Shown piece after piece: positions 1 through 10,757 of a stretch of 64,000 nucleotides of DNA. Position numbers and translations under genes: made by a program. Positions within the stretch are counted from its first letter, which is position 1. Each line of letters opens with the position of its first letter. The DNA comes from Paraburkholderia sp. D15. Lineage in GTDB: Bacteria > Pseudomonadota > Gammaproteobacteria > Burkholderiales > Burkholderiaceae. The DNA is taken from assembly GCF_029910215.1 (NCBI RefSeq), contig NZ_CP110396.1:3274876-3338875 (forward strand), read 5' to 3'. Under the pieces are notes generated by a model. The model had not been told where the DNA came from, did no database searches, and was given only the letters and a program-made list of their open reading frames with translations.

Positions 1-39
1 GTCGTTGTCCTGCGCGGCGGAGAGAGTCGTATCGCTCAT
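1..39 (-). CDS. N-terminus of a gene leaving the window, probably ABC permease or ATPase
   Basis: An ATG on the minus strand (complement of 37-39) opens a frame reading MSDTTLSAAQDND before the window ends. It starts 3 bases after the stop of the SsuA-type binding protein and runs in the same direction, so it is most likely the next gene of that operon. Sulfonate ABC operons usually continue with the permease (SsuC) or ATPase (SsuB). The 13 visible residues have no diagnostic motif, so the family is inferred from position alone. Confidence 0.5.
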   Translation of the reverse strand, partial: MSDTTLSAAQDND

Positions 40-42
40 GCG

Positions 43-1116
43 TCAGGCCTGTTTCGGGCGTGTCGCCAGTTTCGCGTTTTCATCGGCGACGATCGCGCCG
101 AAGCCGGGCGCGATGTGATCGGCGATCTGATACGGCTGGCGGATCTGGCCGGTTTGATGGAAGTAGGCGATTTCCTTCTGCCAGCTCTCGATGTTCTGCG
201 GCGAGCCGGCCGGTTCATAGCGTGCGTACGTGCGGCTGACCTGCAACTGCGCGGCCGCGAGCGGGATATGCGAAAGCTCCGCGATATCGGCCGCCCATTT
301 CGCGGGGTCCTGCAACACGCGGTGTTTCGCGCGGATGATCCGGCGCGTCGCGTCTTCCAGCGCGAGTCTGCGCAGCGGATCCTCGACGGCCGAGGTCGGC
401 GCGTACACCAGGCCCGGCACCTCGACCACGTCCTTCAACGCGACCAGAATGCGCGCGTCGTGCTGCGTCTGCGCGATGGCCGTGTTCGGGTCCCAGACGA
501 CGAACGCGTCCACCTGATTGTTGACGAGCGCGGACAGGCCATCGGTGGTGTTCAGCGACAGCACGTTGTTGCGGTCGAACGGAATGCCCGCCTGTTCGAG
601 CGCGCGCGCCAGTTGATAGTGCTGCTTCGAATAGAACGGCAGCGCGATCTTGCGGCCGCGCAGATCCGCCACCGTGCGCACCGGCGAATCCTTCTTCACG
701 AGAATCGCGCTGCCGCCCTGACGGGTTTCCTGCCACGCGGCCAGAATGCTGATGCGCGAGCCGTTGCCGAGCGCGAACAGCACGCCGGTCTCGCCCCCTT
801 GCGCGATATCGACGCGGCTCGTGCGCAGCGCTTCGAGCAGCACGAGCGTCGAATCGAAGTCCGCCCATTTGATCTGGTAGGGCGCGCCGCGATCCTCGCC
901 CGAGGCGATCAGTTCGCGATGCAGGCCCACCTTGCTGGTGGAGCCGATCGTCAGCGTGATGCCGGACAGGTCCGCGCCGGCGGCCACCGCGAGTTGCAGC
1001 GGCGTCATCGCGAGCGCGCCGGCGGCGAGGCCGCCGAGCAGGAATTCGCGGCGCGATAGTGCTCGCGTGCCGGTGACGGCGGCGGTGAATGAACGGTTGC
1101 GTGCGTGATTGTTCAT
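43..1116 (-). CDS. Aliphatic sulfonate/taurine-type ABC substrate-binding protein (SsuA/TauA family), Tat-exported
   Basis: Predicted periplasmic solute-binding protein of 357 aa. The N-terminus has a twin-arginine signal (SRREFLLGG, arginines at 22-23) followed by an alanine/leucine-rich hydrophobic stretch, with likely cleavage near residue 45. The mature part has the two-lobe SsuA/TauA layout: LTIGSTSKVGLHRELIA at the start, DIAQGGETGVLFAL, then DAFVVWDP. The ATG start is chosen because it overlaps the stop of the upstream ATP-grasp gene by 4 bases; the longer upstream frame is just read-through of that gene. It is the fourth gene of a coupled operon with an exporter and two ligases, an unusual place for a sulfonate importer. 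The actual ligand could be another organosulfur or amino compound. Confidence 0.85.
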   Translation of the reverse strand: MNNHARNRSFTAAVTGTRALSRREFLLGGLAAGALAMTPLQLAVAAGADLSGITLTIGSTSKVGLHRELIASGEDRGAPYQIKWADFDSTLVLLEALRTSRVDIAQGGETGVLFALGNGSRISILAAWQETRQGGSAILVKKDSPVRTVADLRGRKIALPFYSKQHYQLARALEQAGIPFDRNNVLSLNTTDGLSALVNNQVDAFVVWDPNTAIAQTQHDARILVALKDVVEVPGLVYAPTSAVEDPLRRLALEDATRRIIRAKHRVLQDPAKWAADIAELSHIPLAAAQLQVSRTYARYEPAGSPQNIESWQKEIAYFHQTGQIRQPYQIADHIAPGFGAIVADENAKLATRPKQA

Positions 1117-2381
1117 GACTGGATCACCGCCTCCGCGTCCGAGAAGAAACGCGCTTCGATATCGCGGATACGATGGCAATCCGCGAGCAGGGCCTCGAAC
1201 GTCGCGTTGTACAGGCCGACGGTGCCGAGGGCCGTTTTCAGGTCGGTGGTGACGCTGAGCGTATCGCCAGGCTTCACCCATCGCTTGTGACCGACGAACG
1301 ACGGCAACGCCTCGATCGCCTCCCACGCGAAAGGTTTGTTCAATCGCCCCACGCGCGACGACAGCAGCAGCACATGACCGCAGAACCCGTTGAACACGGG
1401 GCGCTGGTTCAGCGCATCCGCGAAACGTTCGGGATTGAGCACGGTCGCGACCGTGGCGGACACGTGATTCTCGCCGTTCACCGCCGTGGTCAGACGCGGG
1501 TCGAGGCTGCCGTGCAGGCGCGCGTTCAGTTCGACGAGCGTCGGTCCGGCGGCGGTATCGATGATCTCCAGATGCGTGGGGCCGTGGCGCACGTCGAGCG
1601 CGTCGAGCACCTGCCGCGCGTAGCCGAGCAGCGCCGCGAAACGCGGCGCGGTGTGATCGACCACCAGCATCTTGTCCAGCCGCGGCGCGTGCGAGCGGTC
1701 GCGATGCACTTCCCACAGGCTCACCACCTTGTGGCGGCCGTCCACCGACACCGAATCGACGATGTACTCCTGGCCTTCGGAATAGGTCTGCACGATCACA
1801 TCTTCGTTCGGCTGGCCGTAGATGGATTGCGTGGCCAGCACATCGCGCGCGGCCGCTTCCACCTGGCCGAGGCTGCGGCAGATTTTCACGCCGGTCACGC
1901 CGGCGCTGCGCGACGGTTTGACGACCACCGGCAGTTGCCCGAGCGCACGGACCCAGCCGACCACGTCGTCGGCCGACCGCGAGCTGTATTGCGACGGCGC
2001 GCGCAAGCCCGCGCGCGTGACCCGCTCGTTCATCAGCACCTTGTCGCGCCGTGCCGCGGATGACGCGAGCGGATTGCGATGCGCGACATCCAGCCGTTCG
2101 GCCAGCGTGTCCGCGAGTTCGAGCGCCGCGTCGAGCCCGTGCAGCACCGCGCCGATCCTCAGATCGCGCAGTTGCGCGAGGGTGTGTTCCAGGTCGCCGT
2201 CGTGATGAATCGTGCGCACGTAGTCCGTCGCGACGAACTGATTGCGGTAAAGCTCCGGCAGATCCGGGCTGCTGATCACGTGCACGCAGCGAATGCCATA
2301 GGCGCGGAAGGCCGGCGCCAGATAGGCGGCGGTGGATGCGCCGTCGACGATCAGGACCGTATCGATGAAAGCGTACGTCAT
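1113..2381 (-). CDS. ATP-grasp ligase (second of two; probable amino acid/peptide ligase)
   Basis: A 422-aa ATP-grasp protein. The central nucleotide-binding segment is visible at 152-161 (VVVKPSRSAG). A swivel segment with QEYIVDSVSVDG lies at about 204-215, and the metal/ATP-binding signature HLEIIDTAAG then TLVELNARLHG runs from 270 to 291. Family knowledge: such enzymes form acyl phosphates from carboxylates and join them to amines, as in BacD-type L-amino-acid ligases. The ATG overlaps the preceding stop by 4 bases, as do its own stop and the next gene's start. It differs strongly from the neighbouring ATP-grasp protein, so it is not a recent tandem copy. Substrates cannot be read from sequence; joining an amino acid made by the divergent oxygenase is inference. 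Confidence 0.85.
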   Translation of the reverse strand: MTYAFIDTVLIVDGASTAAYLAPAFRAYGIRCVHVISSPDLPELYRNQFVATDYVRTIHHDGDLEHTLAQLRDLRIGAVLHGLDAALELADTLAERLDVAHRNPLASSAARRDKVLMNERVTRAGLRAPSQYSSRSADDVVGWVRALGQLPVVVKPSRSAGVTGVKICRSLGQVEAAARDVLATQSIYGQPNEDVIVQTYSEGQEYIVDSVSVDGRHKVVSLWEVHRDRSHAPRLDKMLVVDHTAPRFAALLGYARQVLDALDVRHGPTHLEIIDTAAGPTLVELNARLHGSLDPRLTTAVNGENHVSATVATVLNPERFADALNQRPVFNGFCGHVLLLSSRVGRLNKPFAWEAIEALPSFVGHKRWVKPGDTLSVTTDLKTALGTVGLYNATFEALLADCHRIRDIEARFFSDAEAVIQS

Positions 2382-3598
2382 GGGTGCCTCGCGGGAGTGT
2401 GGTGATGGGTGTAGATGAACGCGCGACGTTCGCGGCCGGGAATCACCTGCGCGCCGTAGGTCACGCTCAGGTTGTCGTCGTGCAGGCGGCCGCTGCCGCT
2501 GAACGCCCAGAGCGGCGGATCGTCGTCGAGCAGGAAATCGACGCGCGCGTAGCGATGCGGGCGGAACGTGCCGGGCAAGGTCACCGTGCGGCCTTCCAGC
2601 CTGTCGAGCAGCGCACCGACGATGTCGAAGCCGTACGCGTCCTTCACGATCGTGCAGATGAAGCTGCCCGCGATCCGCGCATTCAGCTCGACGATGTACG
2701 GCTCGCCGTCGTGCACGATGCAGTCGAGATGCACCGGGCCCCACGTGAGCCCCGATGCGGCAACCGCGCGGCGGCCCGCATCGATCAGCGCGGCGAGCGA
2801 CGCGTCGTCGAGTTCTAGATCGGACGAATAGCCGCGTTCGATGAAGCGCGTGCCTTTCGCCTTGCGCTTGAGCATCGCGCCGACATACGCGCCGTCGAAA
2901 AACTCCACGCAGTACTCCGGGCCCGCGACGAACTGTTCGATCAGCACCGTTTCGTCGTCGCCGCGTTGGCCGGCGAAGGCGTTCAGATGCTCATTCAGAT
3001 ACGCCTGCAACGCGCTCGCGTCGGCGCACAGCGCGACGCCGAAGCTTGATAGCCCTTCGACCGGTTTGACGACGATCGGGAAGGGCAGGTCGCCGCCGCC
3101 TGTCTGCCGTTGCCGTTGCCATTGCTGCAGCTCGCTGAGCGCGGCGATTCGCGACGAAGGCGTGCGAATGCCGGCCTCGTCGAAGAGCCGCTTCTGATTC
3201 GACTTGGCGATGTAATGCGCGACCTTCGCGGCGTCCGGGCCCGGCAGGCCGAGCGCTTCGCTCAGACGGCTCGCGAGGCGCGCGTACTTCTCGTTGGTCG
3301 TGACGATCAACGGTCGTACTTGCGGGTAGTGCGCGTCGATCCACGCCAATACCGTGTCGAAATCCGGCGGCAACGCGACGATGCGCGCTTGCGGCGGAAA
3401 CACGCCGGCCGGTATATCGTCGGGCGCGGTGACGATGGTCACGTCGAAGCCGCGGGCCAGCGCCGCATCGACGAACGCGAGACTGGTGCCGGTGCGCAGC
3501 GTGCCGACCAGCAGCAACGCGCGAGCGGTGCCGAGGTGAGCCGTGGTGTCGCTCGACGATGCGGGCGTCAACTGCGGAAGGGGAGTCGGTGCGTTCAT
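2378..3598 (-). CDS. ATP-grasp ligase (first of two; L-amino-acid ligase type)
   Basis: A 406-aa ATP-grasp enzyme. After an N-terminal Rossmann-like pre-ATP-grasp domain (ALLLVGTLRTG, about 27-36) come IVVKPVEGLSSFGV (175-188), the EQFVAGPEYCVE swivel (221-232) and the Mg/ATP signature HLDCIVHDGEPYIVELNARI (290-309). This pattern is typical of dipeptide-forming carboxylate-amine ligases. The start at 3598 is preferred over an ATG nine codons upstream because it gives the same 4-base overlap seen at the operon's other junctions. It lies directly behind the exporter gene, which suggests the ligated product is exported. Argininosuccinate-lyase-type resistance ligases or carbamoyl-phosphate-synthase-like domains are less likely given length and motifs. 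Confidence 0.87.
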   Translation of the reverse strand: MNAPTPLPQLTPASSSDTTAHLGTARALLLVGTLRTGTSLAFVDAALARGFDVTIVTAPDDIPAGVFPPQARIVALPPDFDTVLAWIDAHYPQVRPLIVTTNEKYARLASRLSEALGLPGPDAAKVAHYIAKSNQKRLFDEAGIRTPSSRIAALSELQQWQRQRQTGGGDLPFPIVVKPVEGLSSFGVALCADASALQAYLNEHLNAFAGQRGDDETVLIEQFVAGPEYCVEFFDGAYVGAMLKRKAKGTRFIERGYSSDLELDDASLAALIDAGRRAVAASGLTWGPVHLDCIVHDGEPYIVELNARIAGSFICTIVKDAYGFDIVGALLDRLEGRTVTLPGTFRPHRYARVDFLLDDDPPLWAFSGSGRLHDDNLSVTYGAQVIPGRERRAFIYTHHHTPARHP

Positions 3599-5010
3599 TT
3601 CTGGCGTAAGGTGAGAAGGATGCACACCACCAGCAAGCCGGTGGCAAAGAGAAACGCGTGCGATGCGCCGGCGGCGATAGCCTGCGCATTGCCGCTGACG
3701 AGCGCGCCGAGCAACGCGACGCCGATTGCGGCGCCCACTTGCCGGCCCGTATTCAGAATCGCCGAAGCGATGCCGGACTGGCCCGCTTCGACATGGCCGA
3801 GCAGAAACGCGGTCAACGCGGGAATCGCGATGCCGCCGCCGATCGCCATCAACGCGAGCCCCGGCACCAGCGCGGGATACGCGCTACGCCCGAGCAGCAA
3901 ACCCAGCGACAGATAGCCGATGGCCGACGCGCAGAGCCCCACGACGATCGTCGTCCGGAAGCCGAAGCGCACTGACAGCTTCGCACTGGCGATGTTGGCC
4001 AGCATGATGATGGTGAGCGGAAACAGCGCCATGCCCGCCTGCGTCGCCGTATAACCCTGGCTGCGCTGGAAATACAGGCTCAGCGAAAAGATCAGCCCGT
4101 AGAACGCGAGATTGGACAACGCGCCGACCACGACCGCGCCTGGAAAACCGGGAATGCGGAAGAACGCGAGCGGCAGCATCGGCGCGGGATGCCGGCGCTC
4201 CAGCGCGACGAACGCGACACCGAGCAGCGCGGCCGACACCAGTCCGCCCCACACCCACGGATCGCTCCACCCATACGCGCCGCTGCCGATGATCGACGCC
4301 GTCAACACGCCGAGCGTGACGATCGCCACGAGTTGACCGGCCGGATCGAGCCGGCGGCTCGCGCTGCGCGTCGATTCGCGCACGAAGCGATAGGTGAGCC
4401 ACAGCGTCAATACGCACACCGGCAGATTGATCAGGAAGATCGCGCGCCAGCCGAAGTGATCGATCAGCAATCCGCCGAGCGTCGGACCCGCCGCGCTAAT
4501 CAGACCGCCGGTCGCGCTCCACCAGCTGACCGCCTTCACGCGCGACGCGGCATGCCCCGCGCAGGCGTGCGTGATCAACGACAGCGAGGTGGGCAGAATC
4601 AGCGCGGCCGCCGCGCCTTGCACCACACGCGCGACGATCAGCGTGGCGAGGTTGGGCGCGAGCGCGCAGCCGAGCGAGGCGAGCAGAAAAAGCGCGAGGC
4701 CGTAGCCGAAGAGCCGCTTGCTGCCCAACCGGTCCGCCAGCGAACCCGAGCTCAGCAGCAACGACGCAAACGACAACGTATAAGCATCGACCACCCATTG
4801 AAGGCCATGTACCGTCGAATCGAACGAATGACCTAACGCGGGAATCGCGACATTAACGACGGTCACGTCTAATTGAACGATGGAAAAGCCGATACTCGCG
4901 GCCGCGACGGTCGGGAAAATACGCGGCGCTTTATATGCCGTATTTGCCGGATTATGCGTTTGCGCATCGGCGAAACCATTGCTGGCGGGTTTTTCCGCGA
5001 CAGCCGTCAT
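3595..5010 (-). CDS. DHA2-family MFS exporter (EmrB/QacA type, 14 TM)
   Basis: A 471-aa inner-membrane drug:H+ antiporter homologue. It has the TM1 family signature IVQLDVTVVNVAIPALG, the TM2-TM3 loop SLADRLGSKRLFGYG (motif A), VVQGAAAALILPTSL, and the TM5 motif C region with GPTLGGLLIDHFGWR, then many hydrophobic segments consistent with 14 helices. It is the promoter-proximal gene of the leftward operon, and its stop overlaps the first ATP-grasp start by 4 bases. Exporters placed first before ligase genes usually give self-protection or secretion of a peptide product; that role here is inference. About 320 AT-richer bases separate it from the divergent oxygenase gene. Confidence 0.9.
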   Translation of the reverse strand: MTAVAEKPASNGFADAQTHNPANTAYKAPRIFPTVAAASIGFSIVQLDVTVVNVAIPALGHSFDSTVHGLQWVVDAYTLSFASLLLSSGSLADRLGSKRLFGYGLALFLLASLGCALAPNLATLIVARVVQGAAAALILPTSLSLITHACAGHAASRVKAVSWWSATGGLISAAGPTLGGLLIDHFGWRAIFLINLPVCVLTLWLTYRFVRESTRSASRRLDPAGQLVAIVTLGVLTASIIGSGAYGWSDPWVWGGLVSAALLGVAFVALERRHPAPMLPLAFFRIPGFPGAVVVGALSNLAFYGLIFSLSLYFQRSQGYTATQAGMALFPLTIIMLANIASAKLSVRFGFRTTIVVGLCASAIGYLSLGLLLGRSAYPALVPGLALMAIGGGIAIPALTAFLLGHVEAGQSGIASAILNTGRQVGAAIGVALLGALVSGNAQAIAAGASHAFLFATGLLVVCILLTLRQK

Positions 5011-5332
5011 ACCTGCTCCCGTTATCGATCTCGATGACGGAGACTAACGACGATCCTGCATCAGGACAAATGATAAGAAGTGATTTGATAAGCACATTTT
5101 CATTTTCAATTCAAAACGCATTGCTGTTCGATTCAGCATCTTTCACGTTGCAGCGAATATCGGCAAAAACGGCATGCGTATATTCAATTATTTTGTTTTG
5201 ATTTGCTTTTTTATCGTTTTGAATTGTTTCTCCGGAGCCCTAGGCTATGCCCTGCATCGGGTTACTGTTCGCTGTGCGATGCGTGCAAACCAACGTCATT
5301 TTCTCCGTCGACAACCCTTCCGGGAAATTTTC
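5011..5332. promoter_or_regulatory. AT-rich divergent promoter region between exporter operon and oxygenase
   Basis: 322 bases between two divergent starts, visibly AT-richer than its surroundings, especially 5080-5240 with runs of T and A. It must hold promoters for both transcription units. A frame for the rightward gene could extend into it from 5174, but the implied N-terminus is a hydrophobic, AT-coded stretch unlike the rest of the protein, so I treat it as noncoding. No clear palindrome was recognised. Confidence 0.55.
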
Positions 5333-6436
5333 ATGACTTACTCCGCAGATGAACGAATCGTCCTGACTGCCGCCGAATCGAGTCAGATTCGCAGCGCGTT
5401 GACCAGCCTGCCGTACGACCCCGCCGGCGGCGCCGACTATATCGGCGCGTTACGGCGCATCGCGTACTCGACCTTGCCCGAGCGCTTACTGGCCGCGATC
5501 GAACGAACCAAATTGCCGGCGGCCAGTGCCAACGGCTCGCTGGAAATCGACAACCTGCCGATCGACGCGGATATCAGCGGCAGTCCGCAATTCACCGAAA
5601 CGGGCCGTAGTTTCAAGGGCGGCGTGCTGAGCGAGAACGTACTGGTCGCATTGGGCGCGCTGGCGGGCGAACCGTATTCGATCGCTCACGAAGGCCGTGA
5701 GCTGGTGAACAATCTCACGCCGCACAAGGAGACCGCGCACGACTACACGGGGCTCGGTTCCGAGGTCGAACTGGATTTCCATATCGAGAACGCGGCGCAG
5801 GCGCACATGCCGGAAGGCGATACGTCGCCGTTCGCGCTGCTGCTGCTCGGCATCCGCAGCGAGCCGCAAGGCGGTCCGCACACGCGTCTCGCCGATGCGC
5901 GCCGCGCGCTGGGACTGCTGTCGGATGAAGACATCGAATATCTGTACGGCCGCCATTACATCATTCGCGTGCCGTACCGCTGGCGCGGCGCGACGCCGAC
6001 GCCGCGCGACAACACGGATCTGAGCGCGGTGCTGTCCGGCCCGGTGGAGTCGCCGCGCGTGACGGTCGCGTTCTATCCGGACATGGTGCTGGCCGCGAAT
6101 GCGCGCGCCAAGCTGGCGCTCGACAATCTGTACCAGGCGATCCGCGAGGTGTCATTCGGCGTGCAGATCACGCCGGGCAAGCTGGTGCTGATCAATAACA
6201 GCTTCACGCTGCATTCGCGCGATCGGTTCGCGCCGCAATACGATGCGAACGATCGCGCGTACCGCTGGGTGCAGCGTGTGTTCGTCGCGCGCAGTCTGTG
6301 GAATTTCCGCTCGTTCACGCGTCTGCATGACCGGGTGTTCGATCCGAAGAATCTGTCGCAGCCGGCGGCCGCCCATGCGGCGATCGCGACGCCGGCACCG
6401 GCACCGGTGCGGCGCGAGGCGGTGGCTGTCGCCTAG
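5333..6436 (+). CDS. Clavaminate synthase/asparagine hydroxylase-like Fe(II)/2-oxoglutarate oxygenase
   Basis: A 367-aa non-heme iron oxygenase. The facial triad is visible: H150 and E152 in LDFHIENAAQAH, and H294 in FTLHSRDRFAPQYD. R308 follows H294 by 14 residues, the usual spacing for the 2-oxoglutarate-binding arginine in clavaminate synthase and AsnO. The family beta-hydroxylates free amino acids such as Asn, Arg or Orn, or performs oxidative cyclisation. The ATG at 5333 with upstream GGGA is chosen over longer frames that enter AT-rich DNA. The last 20 or so residues are Ala/Pro-rich and probably disordered. It diverges from the exporter/ATP-grasp operon, consistent with hydroxylating an amino acid that the ligases then join. 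The substrate is unknown. Confidence 0.82.
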   Translation: MTYSADERIVLTAAESSQIRSALTSLPYDPAGGADYIGALRRIAYSTLPERLLAAIERTKLPAASANGSLEIDNLPIDADISGSPQFTETGRSFKGGVLSENVLVALGALAGEPYSIAHEGRELVNNLTPHKETAHDYTGLGSEVELDFHIENAAQAHMPEGDTSPFALLLLGIRSEPQGGPHTRLADARRALGLLSDEDIEYLYGRHYIIRVPYRWRGATPTPRDNTDLSAVLSGPVESPRVTVAFYPDMVLAANARAKLALDNLYQAIREVSFGVQITPGKLVLINNSFTLHSRDRFAPQYDANDRAYRWVQRVFVARSLWNFRSFTRLHDRVFDPKNLSQPAAAHAAIATPAPAPVRREAVAVA

Positions 6437-6632: not shown

Positions 6633-7982
6633 ATGAGCAAACGTAGCGGCCATCTGCGCCTCGGCGCGTTCCTTTATCCCGCCGGCCACCATATCGCGGC
6701 ATGGCGTCATCCGCGCGCGCAGGCCGACGCGGGCATCAATTTCCAGCACTACGTGAAGCTCGCGCAGACCGCCGAGGCCGCGAAGTTCGACCTCGTGTTT
6801 CTCGCCGACGGTGTCGGCACGCGCGGCGACGATGTCGACTTCCTGAGCCGCACCGCGCACAGCTACGTCGCGCAGTTCGAGCCGATCACCTTGCTGTCCG
6901 CGCTGGCCGCGGTGACCGAACGCATCGGTCTGGTCGGCACGGCGTCGACGAGTTTCAACGAGCCGTATCACATCGCGCGTAAATTCGCGTCGCTCGATCA
7001 CATCAGCGGCGGGCGCGCGGGCTGGAATCTGGTGACGTCGTCCAGCGAGCACGAGGCGAAGAACTTCAATCGCGAGCGGCATTTCGAGCATGCGGAACGC
7101 TACGAACGCGCGGCGGAATTCGCCGAAGTCACGGCCGGACTGTGGGATAGCTGGGAAGACGACGCGTTCGTGCGCGACAAGACCGCGGGCCGTTTCTTCG
7201 ATCCGGCGAAGCGGCATGTGCTGGATCACAAGGGACGGTTTTTTCAGGTCAAGGGGCCGTTGAACGTCGCGCGTTCGCCGCAGGGACATCCGGTCGTCGT
7301 GCAGGCCGGTTCGTCGGAGGCGGGCCGCGAGCTGGCGGCCCGCACCGCCGAGGTGATTTTCACCGCGCAGCAGCGGCTCGGCGACGCGGTGGATTTCTAC
7401 GCGGACGTGAAAGGCCGCATGCGCGCTTACGGCCGCGAACCGGACGATCTGAAGATCATGCCCGGCGTGCTGCCGATCGTCGGCCGCACGGAGAGCGAGG
7501 CGCGCGAGAAGTTCGAGCAGTTGCAGTCGCTGATCGATCCGAAGGTCGGCCTCGCGATGGTCGCGGGATTGACCGGTGGTTTCGATCTCTCGGGCTATCC
7601 GCTCGACGGTCCGATTCCCGAACTGCCCGAAACGAACGCGAGCAAGAGCCGCCAGGCGTTGACGATCGACCTCGCGCGACGCGAGAACCTGACGATCCGC
7701 CAACTCTATCTGCGCGTGGCGGGCGCGCGCGGACACTGGCAACTGGTGGGCACGGCCGCGCAGATCGTCGACCAGCTGGAAGAGCGTTTCGTGCATTACG
7801 GCGCGGACGGCTTCAACGTGATGCCGCCGGTGCTGCCGGATGGCCTGCGGGATTTCGTCGAACTGGTGTTGCCCGAACTGCGCCGCCGAGGATTGTTCCG
7901 CGACGAATACGAAGGGCGCACGCTGAGAGAGAACCTGGGGTTGCGGCGACCGGTGCATCGGCGCCCGGCGCATCGGTCATGA
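6633..7982 (+). CDS. NtaA/SnaA/DszA-family FMN-dependent monooxygenase
   Basis: A 449-aa bacterial-luciferase-like flavin monooxygenase using reduced FMN from a separate reductase. The family signature is clear: LGAFLYPAGHHIAAWRHP at the N-terminus, GLVGTASTSFNEPYHIARKF, the SGGRAGWNLVTSS loop, and GHPVVVQAGSSEAGRELAA in the middle. Known members oxidise nitrilotriacetate, pristinamycin precursor, dibenzothiophene sulfone or sulfonates. With a TauD-type gene convergent to it and an SsuA-type binding protein nearby, an organosulfur substrate is likely but not proven. The sequence offers no partner flavin reductase within this locus, so reduced flavin would have to come from elsewhere. Confidence 0.88.
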   Translation: MSKRSGHLRLGAFLYPAGHHIAAWRHPRAQADAGINFQHYVKLAQTAEAAKFDLVFLADGVGTRGDDVDFLSRTAHSYVAQFEPITLLSALAAVTERIGLVGTASTSFNEPYHIARKFASLDHISGGRAGWNLVTSSSEHEAKNFNRERHFEHAERYERAAEFAEVTAGLWDSWEDDAFVRDKTAGRFFDPAKRHVLDHKGRFFQVKGPLNVARSPQGHPVVVQAGSSEAGRELAARTAEVIFTAQQRLGDAVDFYADVKGRMRAYGREPDDLKIMPGVLPIVGRTESEAREKFEQLQSLIDPKVGLAMVAGLTGGFDLSGYPLDGPIPELPETNASKSRQALTIDLARRENLTIRQLYLRVAGARGHWQLVGTAAQIVDQLEERFVHYGADGFNVMPPVLPDGLRDFVELVLPELRRRGLFRDEYEGRTLRENLGLRRPVHRRPAHRS

Positions 7983-7994
7983 ACCGGATGTGAT

Positions 7995-8023
7995 CTCGTG
8001 ACCGGATCTGAACCGGTCACGAG
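7995..8023. terminator. Hairpin between convergent genes (bidirectional terminator candidate)
   Basis: A perfect 11-bp stem (CTCGTGACCGG and its complement) with a 7-base loop lies between the stops at 7982 (+) and 8029 (-). There is no long U-tract, so termination efficiency is uncertain. Confidence 0.55.
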
Positions 8024-8028
8024 CTTGA

Positions 8029-9000
8029 TCAATTCAACGCCACCGCCGCGGCCGCGCTCACCGGCGTGCCTTCCAGCGCGACCGACTGACGTCCGTCCGG
8101 CCCGGCCGGCACATCGCCGACCAGCGTCGTGCGATAGAGCTGGCGGTCGAAGTCGAGGTCGAAGATATCGGTCGGCGCGAGGTGCGCGGTGGCGCGGTTG
8201 TCCCAGAACGCGATGCTGCCCGCTTCCCACTTGAAGCGCACCGTGAATTCCGGCCGCGTCACGTGTTCCCACAGCAATTCGAGCAAGGCCTGGCCCTCGC
8301 GCGGCGTCACGTCCACGATCGACTTCAGAAAACTTGGGCTCACGTACAGCGCGCGCTCGCCGGTTTCCGGATGCACGCGCACCAGCGGATGCTCCGTCAC
8401 CAGCGTGCGTTCCTCGACGGCCTTGACGAACGCCTCGGTGCCGCTCGCGCCGGCCGGCGGCGTGAAGCGATGAATGCCGCGCAGACCGTCGACGAACGCA
8501 CGCAACGGCGCCGACAGCTTGTTGTACGCGGTCACGAGATCGGTCCACTGCGTGTCGCCGCCGTACGGCGGAATCGTCACGCCGCGCAGAATCGAGGCCC
8601 ATGGCGGATTGATGGCGGCGGTCACGTCGGTATGCCAGCCGGTCCACGGACGCCGCAGCGGCTCGCCTTCGAAACGCGTGGCCTTGCGGTACTTCGAGAT
8701 CGAATACACCTGCGGATGGCCGTCCACGTGGCCGAACACCGGATGCCCGACCGTCAGCTCGCCGAACTGCGCGGCGAACGCGATGTGCTGTTCGTGCGTC
8801 AGGAACTGCTCGCGGAAAAACACCACGCGCCATTTGAGCAACGCGGCGCGGATCTGGGCGACCTGGCCGGGGGCGAGCTGGCGCGTCAGATCGACGCCGT
8901 GAATCTCGGCGCCGATGTGCGCGGACAGCGGCTTGACGTCGATCGGCTGCGCACTTGATTGCGCGCTTGATTGCGTTTCCTGCACTGCGGCTGCGCTCAT
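8029..9000 (-). CDS. TauD/TfdA-family Fe(II)/2-oxoglutarate dioxygenase
   Basis: A 323-aa taurine-dioxygenase-like enzyme that would release sulfite from a sulfonate, or hydroxylate a related substrate, with 2-oxoglutarate and O2. Iron ligands are H123 and D125 in GWHTDVTAA and H273 in NRATAHLAPTD; the 2-oxoglutarate arginine is likely R290. The N-terminal IGAEIHGVDLTRQL is characteristic of the family. The start at 9000 is supported by an AGGAG ribosome site a few bases upstream; longer frames upstream enter the divergent promoter region. It is convergent with the flavin monooxygenase and divergent from the FAD monooxygenase. Alkylsulfatase (AtsK-type) activity is an alternative. Confidence 0.88.
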   Translation of the reverse strand: MSAAAVQETQSSAQSSAQPIDVKPLSAHIGAEIHGVDLTRQLAPGQVAQIRAALLKWRVVFFREQFLTHEQHIAFAAQFGELTVGHPVFGHVDGHPQVYSISKYRKATRFEGEPLRRPWTGWHTDVTAAINPPWASILRGVTIPPYGGDTQWTDLVTAYNKLSAPLRAFVDGLRGIHRFTPPAGASGTEAFVKAVEERTLVTEHPLVRVHPETGERALYVSPSFLKSIVDVTPREGQALLELLWEHVTRPEFTVRFKWEAGSIAFWDNRATAHLAPTDIFDLDFDRQLYRTTLVGDVPAGPDGRQSVALEGTPVSAAAAVALN

Positions 9001-9308
9001 GCGGGGCTCCTGCTGAAAGTGGGGGAAGTGTTCGTGTCGGGCTGAGTGGCCGTCGCATCTCACGTTAAATTTGCCGCGTCGCGAAGCCAACCAATCATTG
9101 CAAATAAGAAAAGCAGCGGACGTGCGAAACATGCGCGCGCTGCCGGTACGTACGAGCACGCGCATATCTAAAGCGGAAATTGTTGGTTTGGACCCGGCTC
9201 GTAGGCCGGGATACTGATGCCGCGACTGTCTGTGCATTGCTCGATCGTTGAACGCTTCGACGCATCCACGCTTCAACCCTTCAACCTCCTGACCGCGAGT
9301 CGACCACC
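9001..9308. promoter_or_regulatory. Divergent promoter region of TauD-type and FAD-monooxygenase genes
   Basis: 308 bases between divergent starts. It contains AT-rich stretches around 9090-9110 and 9165-9190, and a small hairpin CCCGGC/GCCGGG at 9193-9210. No coding sequence is convincing here. Confidence 0.45.
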
Positions 9309-10757
9309 ATGACGCAACCCCCGCATCCCGACCAACTCGCGCTCGACACCTTGCGCCTGATCGGCCCGGCGCCCGAGAACTGGGTGCCGCCGCGCGACGG
9401 TATCGACCATAACGTGGTGATCGTCGGGGGCGGGCAGAGCGGCACGGCGTTCGCGTTCGCGCTGCGGCGCGCGGGCATCGGTCAGGTCAGCGTGATCGAC
9501 GCGGCGCCGGACGAAACGCTCGCCGGCGTGTGGCTCACCCGCGCGCGGATGAACAAATTGCGTACGCCGAAAACGCTCGTCGGTCCCGAAGCGGGACTAC
9601 CGGGGCTGAGTTTTCAGGCGTGGTACGAAGCGCGTTTCGGCGCCGCGTCGTATGCGGAGATCGACCGCATTCCACGCACGCGTTGGGCCGACTACCTCGC
9701 CTGGTATCGGCATTTCCTGGAGATTCCGATTCGCTATGGCACGCGGCTCACCGCGATCGAACCGGTTGGCGAGCATTTCCGTTTGCATCTCGACGTACGT
9801 GACGGCGAAACGATTCGCCGTGTCGTCGAGACGACACGCAAGATCGTGCTCGGCAATGGCGTGGCCGGCAACGGCGCGCCTTACGTGCCGGACGCGCTGA
9901 AGCACCTGCCGTCCACGCACTTCGCCCACACCTCCGAGCCGATCGATTTCGCCGCGCTGCGCGGGCGTACCGTGGCCGTGGTCGGCGGCGCGGCGTCCGC
10001 GTTCGATGCAGCCGCCACGGCGCTGGAAGCCGGCGCCGCGCACGTGCATCTGTTCGCGCGCCGCGAGCGCCTCGCGAGTGTGCCAGTCAGCCGCACGCGC
10101 GCGTATCCCGGCGCTTACGACAATTACTTCCACCTGCCCGACGCGCTGCGCTGGTCGCAGGCGCGGCGCTTCCGGCGCGCGGGTTCGACGCCGCCGGCCG
10201 ATGCGATCGAACGCGCCACGCGCTTCGACGGCTTTCATCTGCATCTCGGCGCATCGTGGACGAATGCGAGCATTGACCACGGCCGCGTCGAAACGAACGT
10301 TGCGGGCGAAACCTTCGCGTTCGACTTCGTGATCGCGGGTACCGGCTACGCGATCGATCCAGCGCTGCGACCCGAACTCGCCGGAATCGCCGCGCACATC
10401 CGGCTATGGCGCGATCAGTACACGCCCGCCGCGAGCGAACAGGACGACGCGCTGGGCACGCATCCGTATCTCGGCGCGGCGCTCGAATATCTGGAGAAAA
10501 CGCCGGGTTCCGCGCCGTATCTGAAGCATATCCACGTGTACAACCCCGGCGCGTTCGTCAGCTTCGGCCTGCCGGTCGGCGACGTGCCGAGCATGAAACG
10601 CGACATTCCCGCCGTTGTGCAGCGCATTAGCCGCGACCTGTTCCTCGCCGATCTCGACGCGCACGAAGCGCGCATTCACGCCGACATCGCCGCCGATTTC
10701 GACGAGACGCTCTACGCGCGCAGCGTCTGGCAGCGCGATCGGGTGGATGCGGCTTGA
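9309..10757 (+). CDS. FAD/NAD(P)-dependent monooxygenase-like oxidoreductase
   Basis: A 482-aa two-dinucleotide-fold flavoprotein. The FAD Rossmann motif is at about residues 34-45 (VVIVGGGQSGTAFAF) and a second dinucleotide motif (TVAVVGGAASAFDAA) lies near the middle, followed by a basic ARRERLASVPVSRTRAYPG segment. The ATG-like GTGYAIDP turn occurs in the C-terminal third. This matches single-component flavin monooxygenases (FMO/N-hydroxylase-like) often found in organosulfur loci. It ends 15 bases before the stop of the convergent 10773-11696 gene. Substrate unknown; S- or N-oxygenation is plausible. Confidence 0.8.
   Translation: MTQPPHPDQLALDTLRLIGPAPENWVPPRDGIDHNVVIVGGGQSGTAFAFALRRAGIGQVSVIDAAPDETLAGVWLTRARMNKLRTPKTLVGPEAGLPGLSFQAWYEARFGAASYAEIDRIPRTRWADYLAWYRHFLEIPIRYGTRLTAIEPVGEHFRLHLDVRDGETIRRVVETTRKIVLGNGVAGNGAPYVPDALKHLPSTHFAHTSEPIDFAALRGRTVAVVGGAASAFDAAATALEAGAAHVHLFARRERLASVPVSRTRAYPGAYDNYFHLPDALRWSQARRFRRAGSTPPADAIERATRFDGFHLHLGASWTNASIDHGRVETNVAGETFAFDFVIAGTGYAIDPALRPELAGIAAHIRLWRDQYTPAASEQDDALGTHPYLGAALEYLEKTPGSAPYLKHIHVYNPGAFVSFGLPVGDVPSMKRDIPAVVQRISRDLFLADLDAHEARIHADIAADFDETLYARSVWQRDRVDAA

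Follow-up and report, generated by a model that had tools for sequence, protein, structure and literature searches.

Small peptides can be built without a nonribosomal peptide synthetase (NRPS). In Streptomyces, two different ATP-grasp ligases, PnaB and PnaC, make the dipeptide and the tripeptide of the phosphonoalamides (PMC11867202). In fungi, the E-64 pathway (Cp1A, Cp1B, Cp1D) starts from an acid made by an Fe(II)/2-oxoglutarate (2OG) oxygenase and continues with stand-alone amide-forming enzymes, the first of them an ATP-grasp ligase; the same article gives dapdiamide/herbicolin I of Pantoea as a case of amide bonds formed without an NRPS, and TabS of the tabtoxin pathway as an ATP-grasp dipeptide ligase (PMC12568646). 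Here we describe a locus at the left end of a 64,000-nucleotide stretch of the Paraburkholderia sp. D15 genome (NZ_CP110396.1, positions 3,274,876 to 3,338,875; "the window" hereafter means this whole stretch), where a leftward operon encoding a DHA2-type exporter and two unlike ATP-grasp ligases, AG1 and AG2, diverges from the gene for an Fe(II)/2OG oxygenase of the AsnO/clavaminate-synthase type. Judging from its sequence, the locus is likely to be a biosynthetic gene cluster that works without an NRPS and makes a small peptide or pseudopeptide for export, and we file it as an undescribed family within a known kind, the NRPS-independent ATP-grasp peptide clusters.

The locus differs from each of these systems. 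Phosphonate genes are absent among the proteins scanned here, and the oxygenase may supply the unusual residue in their stead; the E-64 pathway is fungal, uses another ATP-grasp family and forms its second bond with an ANL-family enzyme. We take the dapdiamide cluster to combine stand-alone amide ligases, one of the two being a DdaF/PRK07206-type ATP-grasp enzyme, with an oxygenase and a major facilitator superfamily (MFS) transporter, and the tabtoxin cluster to hold a clavaminate-synthase-like oxygenase, an exporter, a single ligase and a beta-lactam synthetase-like enzyme, the last of which has no counterpart among the proteins scanned here. In contrast to dapdiamide, both ligases of the window are ATP-grasp enzymes, and genes for a carrier, a peptidase and an ATP-binding cassette (ABC) system are additional. 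The likeness to dapdiamide and tabtoxin loci drawn in the original prediction, a reading of the letters of the window made by a model, is no more than a resemblance: AG2 lies far below the equivalog cutoff of the dapdiamide A synthase DdaF (NF041595, 227.1 of 840 bits).

Other small antibiotic clusters of Pantoea, the Pantoea Natural Products PNP-1 to PNP-5, are in some cases linked to mobile elements; PNP-1 differs from our locus by its gene table. The main text of a survey that covers 12 antibiotic clusters of Pantoea contains neither "ATP-grasp" nor "dioxygenase" (0 occurrences each), an absence that says little because the survey names few genes. A literature search returned no paper describing the locus in its title or the start of its abstract, a weak negative given that subscription literature lay mostly outside the search. 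Clusters devoid of NRPS or polyketide synthase genes are easily overlooked by mining programs, and small Pantoea clusters of this sort have escaped them in several cases (PMC7744662).

Distribution and evolution of the four-gene unit

Among 398 Burkholderiaceae genomes (thresholds E 1e-60 for the oxygenase and AG2, E 1e-50 for AG1), the oxygenase was found in 28 and each of the two ligases in 25. AG1 and AG2 sit in the identical 25 genomes, all of them within the 28 oxygenase carriers, and at these thresholds no genome of the sample has the ligases without the oxygenase. A genome scan for named loci gave 20, and all four homologues stand together in 18 of them, from Paraburkholderia, Burkholderia, Robbsia, Pantoea and Erwinia, with AG1 placed 16 kb from AG2 in one (B. 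lata). The co-conservation that the original prediction had suggested looking for across Burkholderiales is borne out by both samples. Two loci, inspected over 10 kb on each side, lack the full set: one belongs to Trinickia soli, and the other, in Candidatus Burkholderia humilis, is a fragment, a 124-aa oxygenase piece (L028:10162-10536), 73% identical, and the other genes are not in the adjacent stretch.

The closest named relative at the locus is Paraburkholderia bryophila, whose oxygenase is 92-94% identical. The genes are plasmid-borne in B. pyrrocinia, B. cenocepacia, Pantoea alfalfae, Pantoea agglomerans and Rahnella sikkimica; a plasmid record of B. arboris is a further match. In a phylum-wide sample the oxygenase was present in two of 398 genomes, the window's own and one in which it is 39% identical and carries one stop. 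In one genus, taken to be Burkholderia from contig coordinates in common with named loci, 25 of 65 genomes have the oxygenase, and Pantoea, Erwinia and Rahnella have the cluster as well, so that the undescribed metabolite it may export could be widespread. On a Vibrio mediterranei plasmid (L102:9001-9549) lies an oxygenase stretch of 38% identity, with no ligase annotated nearby.

Selection was assessed from nonsynonymous (dN) and synonymous (dS) divergence by NG86, in six pairs for each of the four genes (24 comparisons). Wherever dS was computable, dN is well under dS in all four genes: dN/dS between the window and P. bryophila is 0.06 for the oxygenase, 0.10 for AG2, 0.14 for the MFS exporter and 0.19 for AG1, and between B. 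pyrrocinia and B. metallica the values are 0.11, 0.13, 0.24 and 0.16, in the same order. The ranking of dN, oxygenase < AG2 < MFS < AG1, recurs in six of six pairs, with MFS and AG1 equal (0.055) in the B. pyrrocinia/B. metallica pair. Because the homologues are found together in 18 of the 20 named loci and dN stays well below dS, we do not regard the locus as a chance arrangement.

The gene trees separate {Paraburkholderia, Burkholderia} from {Robbsia, Enterobacterales} for the oxygenase (86/90), the MFS exporter (100/100) and AG2 (100/100). Because Robbsia, a member of the Burkholderiaceae and hence of the window's own family (genome G052), groups with the Enterobacterales, the simplest reading is that the four-gene unit has moved between orders.

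Predicted enzymes and the proposed pathway

The oxygenase has the HxE...H metal triad and the distal Arg of clavaminate-synthase-like oxygenases, and its Fe ligands H150, E152 and H294 (367-aa numbering) are the same in all 12 homologues aligned. By HMMER alignment to AsnO, R311 and R315, which form an R-W-x-Q-R pair, fall on R301 and R305, and E120 falls on E125; all three are invariant (12/12). We assume that in AsnO R301 binds 2OG while R305 and E125 bind the amino acid. The three iron ligands were correctly named in the original prediction; R308, which it had added to them, is replaced in two homologues (L023 and L082), and 2OG is most likely bound by R311 instead.

The solved structures matched by the oxygenase are AsnO, lysine 3-hydroxylase (6f2a), clavaminate synthases and an L-arginine beta-hydroxylase, whose substrates, going by their names, we take to be amino acids or, for clavaminate synthase, amino-acid-derived compounds. 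With these it shares motifs of the HxE...H and R-W-x-Q-R types, but it differs from them in falling below every NCBIfam equivalog cutoff (VioC 68.6/418.6, Cs1 87.5/450, GntD 91.5/345 bits), in belonging to a separate group, whose members share 46-94% identity with the window protein, and in one position of the pocket: F-Y-P-D in the oxygenase aligns with F-D-Q-D in lysine 3-hydroxylase and Y-D-R-E in clavaminate synthase 1, so that Tyr248, invariant in the group, stands where 6f2a and clavaminate synthase 1 have Asp. If, as we presume, the cationic end of the substrate is bound by this Asp, then the oxygenase group can be expected to favour side chains that are not cationic, and its substrate is probably a free, non-cationic amino acid.

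Comparison of the ligases with known L-amino acid ligases, namely BL00235 (3vot), BacD, 4wd3 (which we take to be RizA) and the 30vh enzyme, gave 3vot as the best solved match of AG1 and 30vh as that of AG2. For AG1 this holds both by profile and by fold, at 22% identity over the fold, and E313, N315 and R317 (415-aa open reading frame numbering), presumably its ATP/Mg residues, are intact and shared by all 9 rows in each of the alignments. AG2 matches 30vh at 1.4e-61 (211.5 bits over residues 8-410); its next PDB matches, at 48.8 and 34.5 bits, are both named L-amino acid ligase, the best other match scores 26.6, and AG2 exceeds the cutoff of NF005543 (316.7 against 302 bits). With an L-amino acid ligase as the best match of both, neither is matched best by an ATP-grasp enzyme of primary metabolism (Ddl, PurD, PurK, biotin carboxylase), in agreement with the initial assignment. 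The AG2 gene on the Rahnella sikkimica plasmid (L006:15459-16723) is split over two frames, next to genes with open frames. As for the exporter, TIGR00711 (EmrB-type DHA2 permease) comes first of 50 families at 210.3 bits, below its cutoff of 230.2, so that "DHA2-type" denotes resemblance only.

We hypothesize that the oxygenase would hydroxylate or otherwise oxidise a free, probably non-cationic amino acid, that AG2 and AG1 would each form one amide, ATP phosphorylating a carboxylate which an amine then attacks, to give a di- or tripeptide, and that the DHA2-type transporter would export this product. Because AG1 diverges fastest, it probably selects the partner that varies; a conserved core would be built by the oxygenase together with AG2. 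An M14-like carboxypeptidase encoded in this strain's operon (protein X, see below) could cleave the peptide in the cell, providing self-protection or recycling. The gene set, the co-occurrence and the affinity to amino acid ligases lend partial support to the earlier idea of a modified di- or tripeptide made without an NRPS; the arginine assignment and the boundaries had to be revised. Three enzymes of the cluster lend themselves to testing, namely the two ligases, both likely to act on L-amino acids, and the oxygenase, a likely amino acid oxygenase whose pocket is unusual.

Several observations weigh against this reading. As 22 of the 25 ligase-bearing genomes belong to one genus (Burkholderia), the 25 co-occurrences are not 25 independent events, and neither a bioactivity nor a product is on record for the locus in the literature searched. 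AG1 does not clearly prefer amino acid ligases over Ddl/purine enzymes beyond its best match: below the first profile match, several of the primary-metabolism enzymes outscore the remaining amino acid ligases; in genome G141, AG1 has one stop within the match. The AlphaFold model of the oxygenase is weak (pLDDT, the predicted local distance difference test, 53.5), so that the pocket is read from the alignment alone. At greater depth, dN/dS between the window and B. pyrrocinia reaches 0.31 for the oxygenase, 0.30 for AG2, 0.38 for MFS and 0.55 for AG1, possibly with saturated dS, and 4 of the 24 comparisons, all deep, yielded no dS; the deep order is not settled by the AG1 tree, and the oxygenase, MFS and AG1 trees each have Robbsia flagged as a long branch. 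Last, 3 of the 28 oxygenase-bearing genomes (G025, a Trinickia, G044 and G323) carry the oxygenase without the ligases, so the enzyme is not tied to peptide formation everywhere.

These three genomes would suit a separation of tasks, with the oxygenase helping the cell to feed on an amino acid and the ligases making an unrelated dipeptide. We consider this quite improbable given the lack, across the 398 genomes and at the thresholds used, of any case of ligases without the oxygenase, and given that two orders have retained the unit and the gene trees match. In Trinickia no ligase lies nearby and the oxygenase adjoins a methyltransferase gene. In G044 (L082:9478-12420) a 47% identical oxygenase lies next to a Mem_trans carrier and a 2-hydroxyacid dehydrogenase. 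In G323 (L088:8799-13831) there are no ligases, and the oxygenase is accompanied by a LysR regulator (56% like that of the cluster), another MFS transporter, an AstE/AspA-like hydrolase and an amino-acid-type solute-binding protein, possibly a different use of the same oxygenase; its match shows one TAA, but the frame is open for 352 residues, which puts this stop in the C-terminal tail.

The operon beyond the window and its counterparts in relatives

The four genes of the original prediction are all present at the place it gave, with coordinates and motifs as listed in Table 1; its boundaries did not hold, since the operon goes on after AG2 with a gene for a solute-binding protein (SBP) and then, across the left edge of the window, with genes for a permease (SsuC-like), an ATPase (SsuB-like), a carrier and protein X. 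The genes outside the window were read from a left-hand stretch, L090 (G000:C2:3258000-3276500), on contig C2 of the window's genome, which comprises 8.33 Mb in 3 contigs. Consecutive genes overlap by 4 bp (ATGA) at four operon junctions, MFS/AG1, AG1/AG2, AG2/SBP and carrier/X, and such overlaps are a usual sign of translational coupling. The oxygenase reading frame, as listed from 5174, has a 53-residue upstream extension, and the homologues begin at the later ATG. No sigma-70-like match was found in the divergent intergenic region, and a PADLOC search for anti-phage defence had no match for any of the five proteins given.

Table 1. Genes and intergenic region of the locus (negative positions are relative to window base 1).
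Feature	Position	Strand	Description
Fe(II)/2OG oxygenase, clavaminate-synthase-like	5333..6436	+	367 aa; ATG at 5333; Pfam TauD 4.2e-10; best PDB match AsnO, 1e-16
Divergent intergenic region	5011..5332	.	43% GC against 65-66% on either side; presumed two-way promoter
DHA2-type MFS exporter	3595..5010	-	471 aa; Pfam MFS_1 5.6e-54
AG1, ATP-grasp ligase	2378..3598	-	406 aa from ATG at 3598; KPVEGLSSFG, VELNARIAGS
AG2, ATP-grasp ligase, PRK07206/DdaF-like	1113..2381	-	422 aa; KPSRSAG, VELNARLHG
SsuA-family SBP, after AG2	43..1116	-	TIGR01728 119.6 bits, below cutoff 163.5
SsuC-like permease, first codons	1..39	-	gene runs to -809, left of window
SsuB-like ATPase	to -1654	-	left of window
Bile-acid-symporter-like carrier	to -2753	-	left of window
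Protein X, M14-like peptidase	-2750 to -4426 (L090:12450-14126)	-	558 aa; M14 motifs

Protein X contains H328-x-x-E331, N360-P-D-G and H421, and all 6 homologues share the residues H328, E331, N360 and H421, a layout that we take to be that of the M14 zinc carboxypeptidases; X reaches the cutoff of no Pfam family, and three homologues stay below the Pfam gathering score for M14 (PF00246), at 13.0, 19.0 and 17.4 of 21.6 bits. Matches to X were found in 6 of 30 oxygenase-bearing genomes (four full length, one 71-residue remnant and one weak match over 30 residues) and in 4 of 249 sampled genomes of the family, two of which (G246 and G190) are not among the oxygenase carriers. The X gene of G246 overlaps a class-V aminotransferase gene, and in G190 an M20 peptidase gene lies 3 kb away.

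In the clusters of Pantoea alfalfae, Pantoea agglomerans FL1 and Rahnella, three genes are added: one for a third ligase, paralogous to AG1 at 38-44% identity, one for an alpha-oxoamine synthase, which scores 485.3 bits against the NF005697 cutoff of 342, and one for a luciferase-like monooxygenase of the NtaA/DmoA type. Pantoea Mb-10 has part of the third ligase only, and Erwinia aphidicola and Robbsia have none of the three. In B. cepacia LK29 the synthase and the monooxygenase follow directly after X (about 55% and 41% identical to those of Pantoea/Rahnella), G298 retains X and then only residues 322-452 of the monooxygenase, a C-terminal piece, and about 70 residues of X remain in B. metallica; the Burkholderia clusters look as if trimmed from the X/monooxygenase end. 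It could be, then, that the full pathway builds a larger scaffold, needs both the synthase and the monooxygenase, and has been reduced in the window by their loss, as their position beside the cluster in these four cases and the remnant in G298 would suggest. In the window's genome no clear synthase orthologue exists, the best match elsewhere being only 24% identical (8.9e-13). We find this reading doubtful: among the 28 oxygenase-bearing genomes the synthase is matched at 54% identity in G391 and distantly (38-41%, on other contigs) in G164 and G323, and the reduced set is the commoner one, with intact frames and low dN/dS, which is why it probably works without the extra genes.

Returning to an exported peptide as the likely product, the clusters may together stand for a widespread and undescribed peptide family, with a core fixed by the oxygenase and AG2 and a variable partner chosen by AG1, passed on as one unit from Burkholderiaceae to Enterobacterales or the reverse, elaborated by the synthase and the monooxygenase in some members, and accompanied in some hosts by a cytoplasmic M14-like self-protection; we advance this broader proposal tentatively, as a possibility with the odds against it.

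Whether the SBP belongs to the pathway is uncertain. P. bryophila, too, has the SBP, SsuC-like and SsuB-like genes after AG2 and on its strand (93, 90 and 81% identical), and the carrier after them, 84-86% identical to that of P. bryophila, is 65% identical to one adjoining AG1 in B. pyrrocinia. The likeness of the carrier to bile-acid symporters is distant (the Burkholderia homologue scores 19.8/24.3 bits, and the window's own has no Pfam match). Together with the AG2/SBP overlap, this arrangement lends some colour to an alternative in which a sulfonate or other acid is imported by the SsuABC-like system, coupled by a ligase to a (hydroxy)amino acid and exported by the MFS protein as an amide conjugate. 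We hold such a conjugate unlikely: in a search of 33 loci, only those of P. bryophila closely match the three ABC genes together, with at most 34% identity in other organisms and a single further match to the SBP (32%, L015), and organosulfur genes flank the other side of the locus too, a side that is not conserved with P. bryophila, the TauD proteins there being 32% identical.

On that side, positions 6633-10757 of the window hold genes for an NtaA/DmoA monooxygenase, a TauD-like dioxygenase and an oxidoreductase dependent on flavin adenine dinucleotide, which resemble organosulfur scavenging genes. The first of them (6633-7982) was considered as a cluster gene and set aside, being 28% identical to the luciferase-like monooxygenase of Pantoea and the weakest of the four matches to it in the window's genome.

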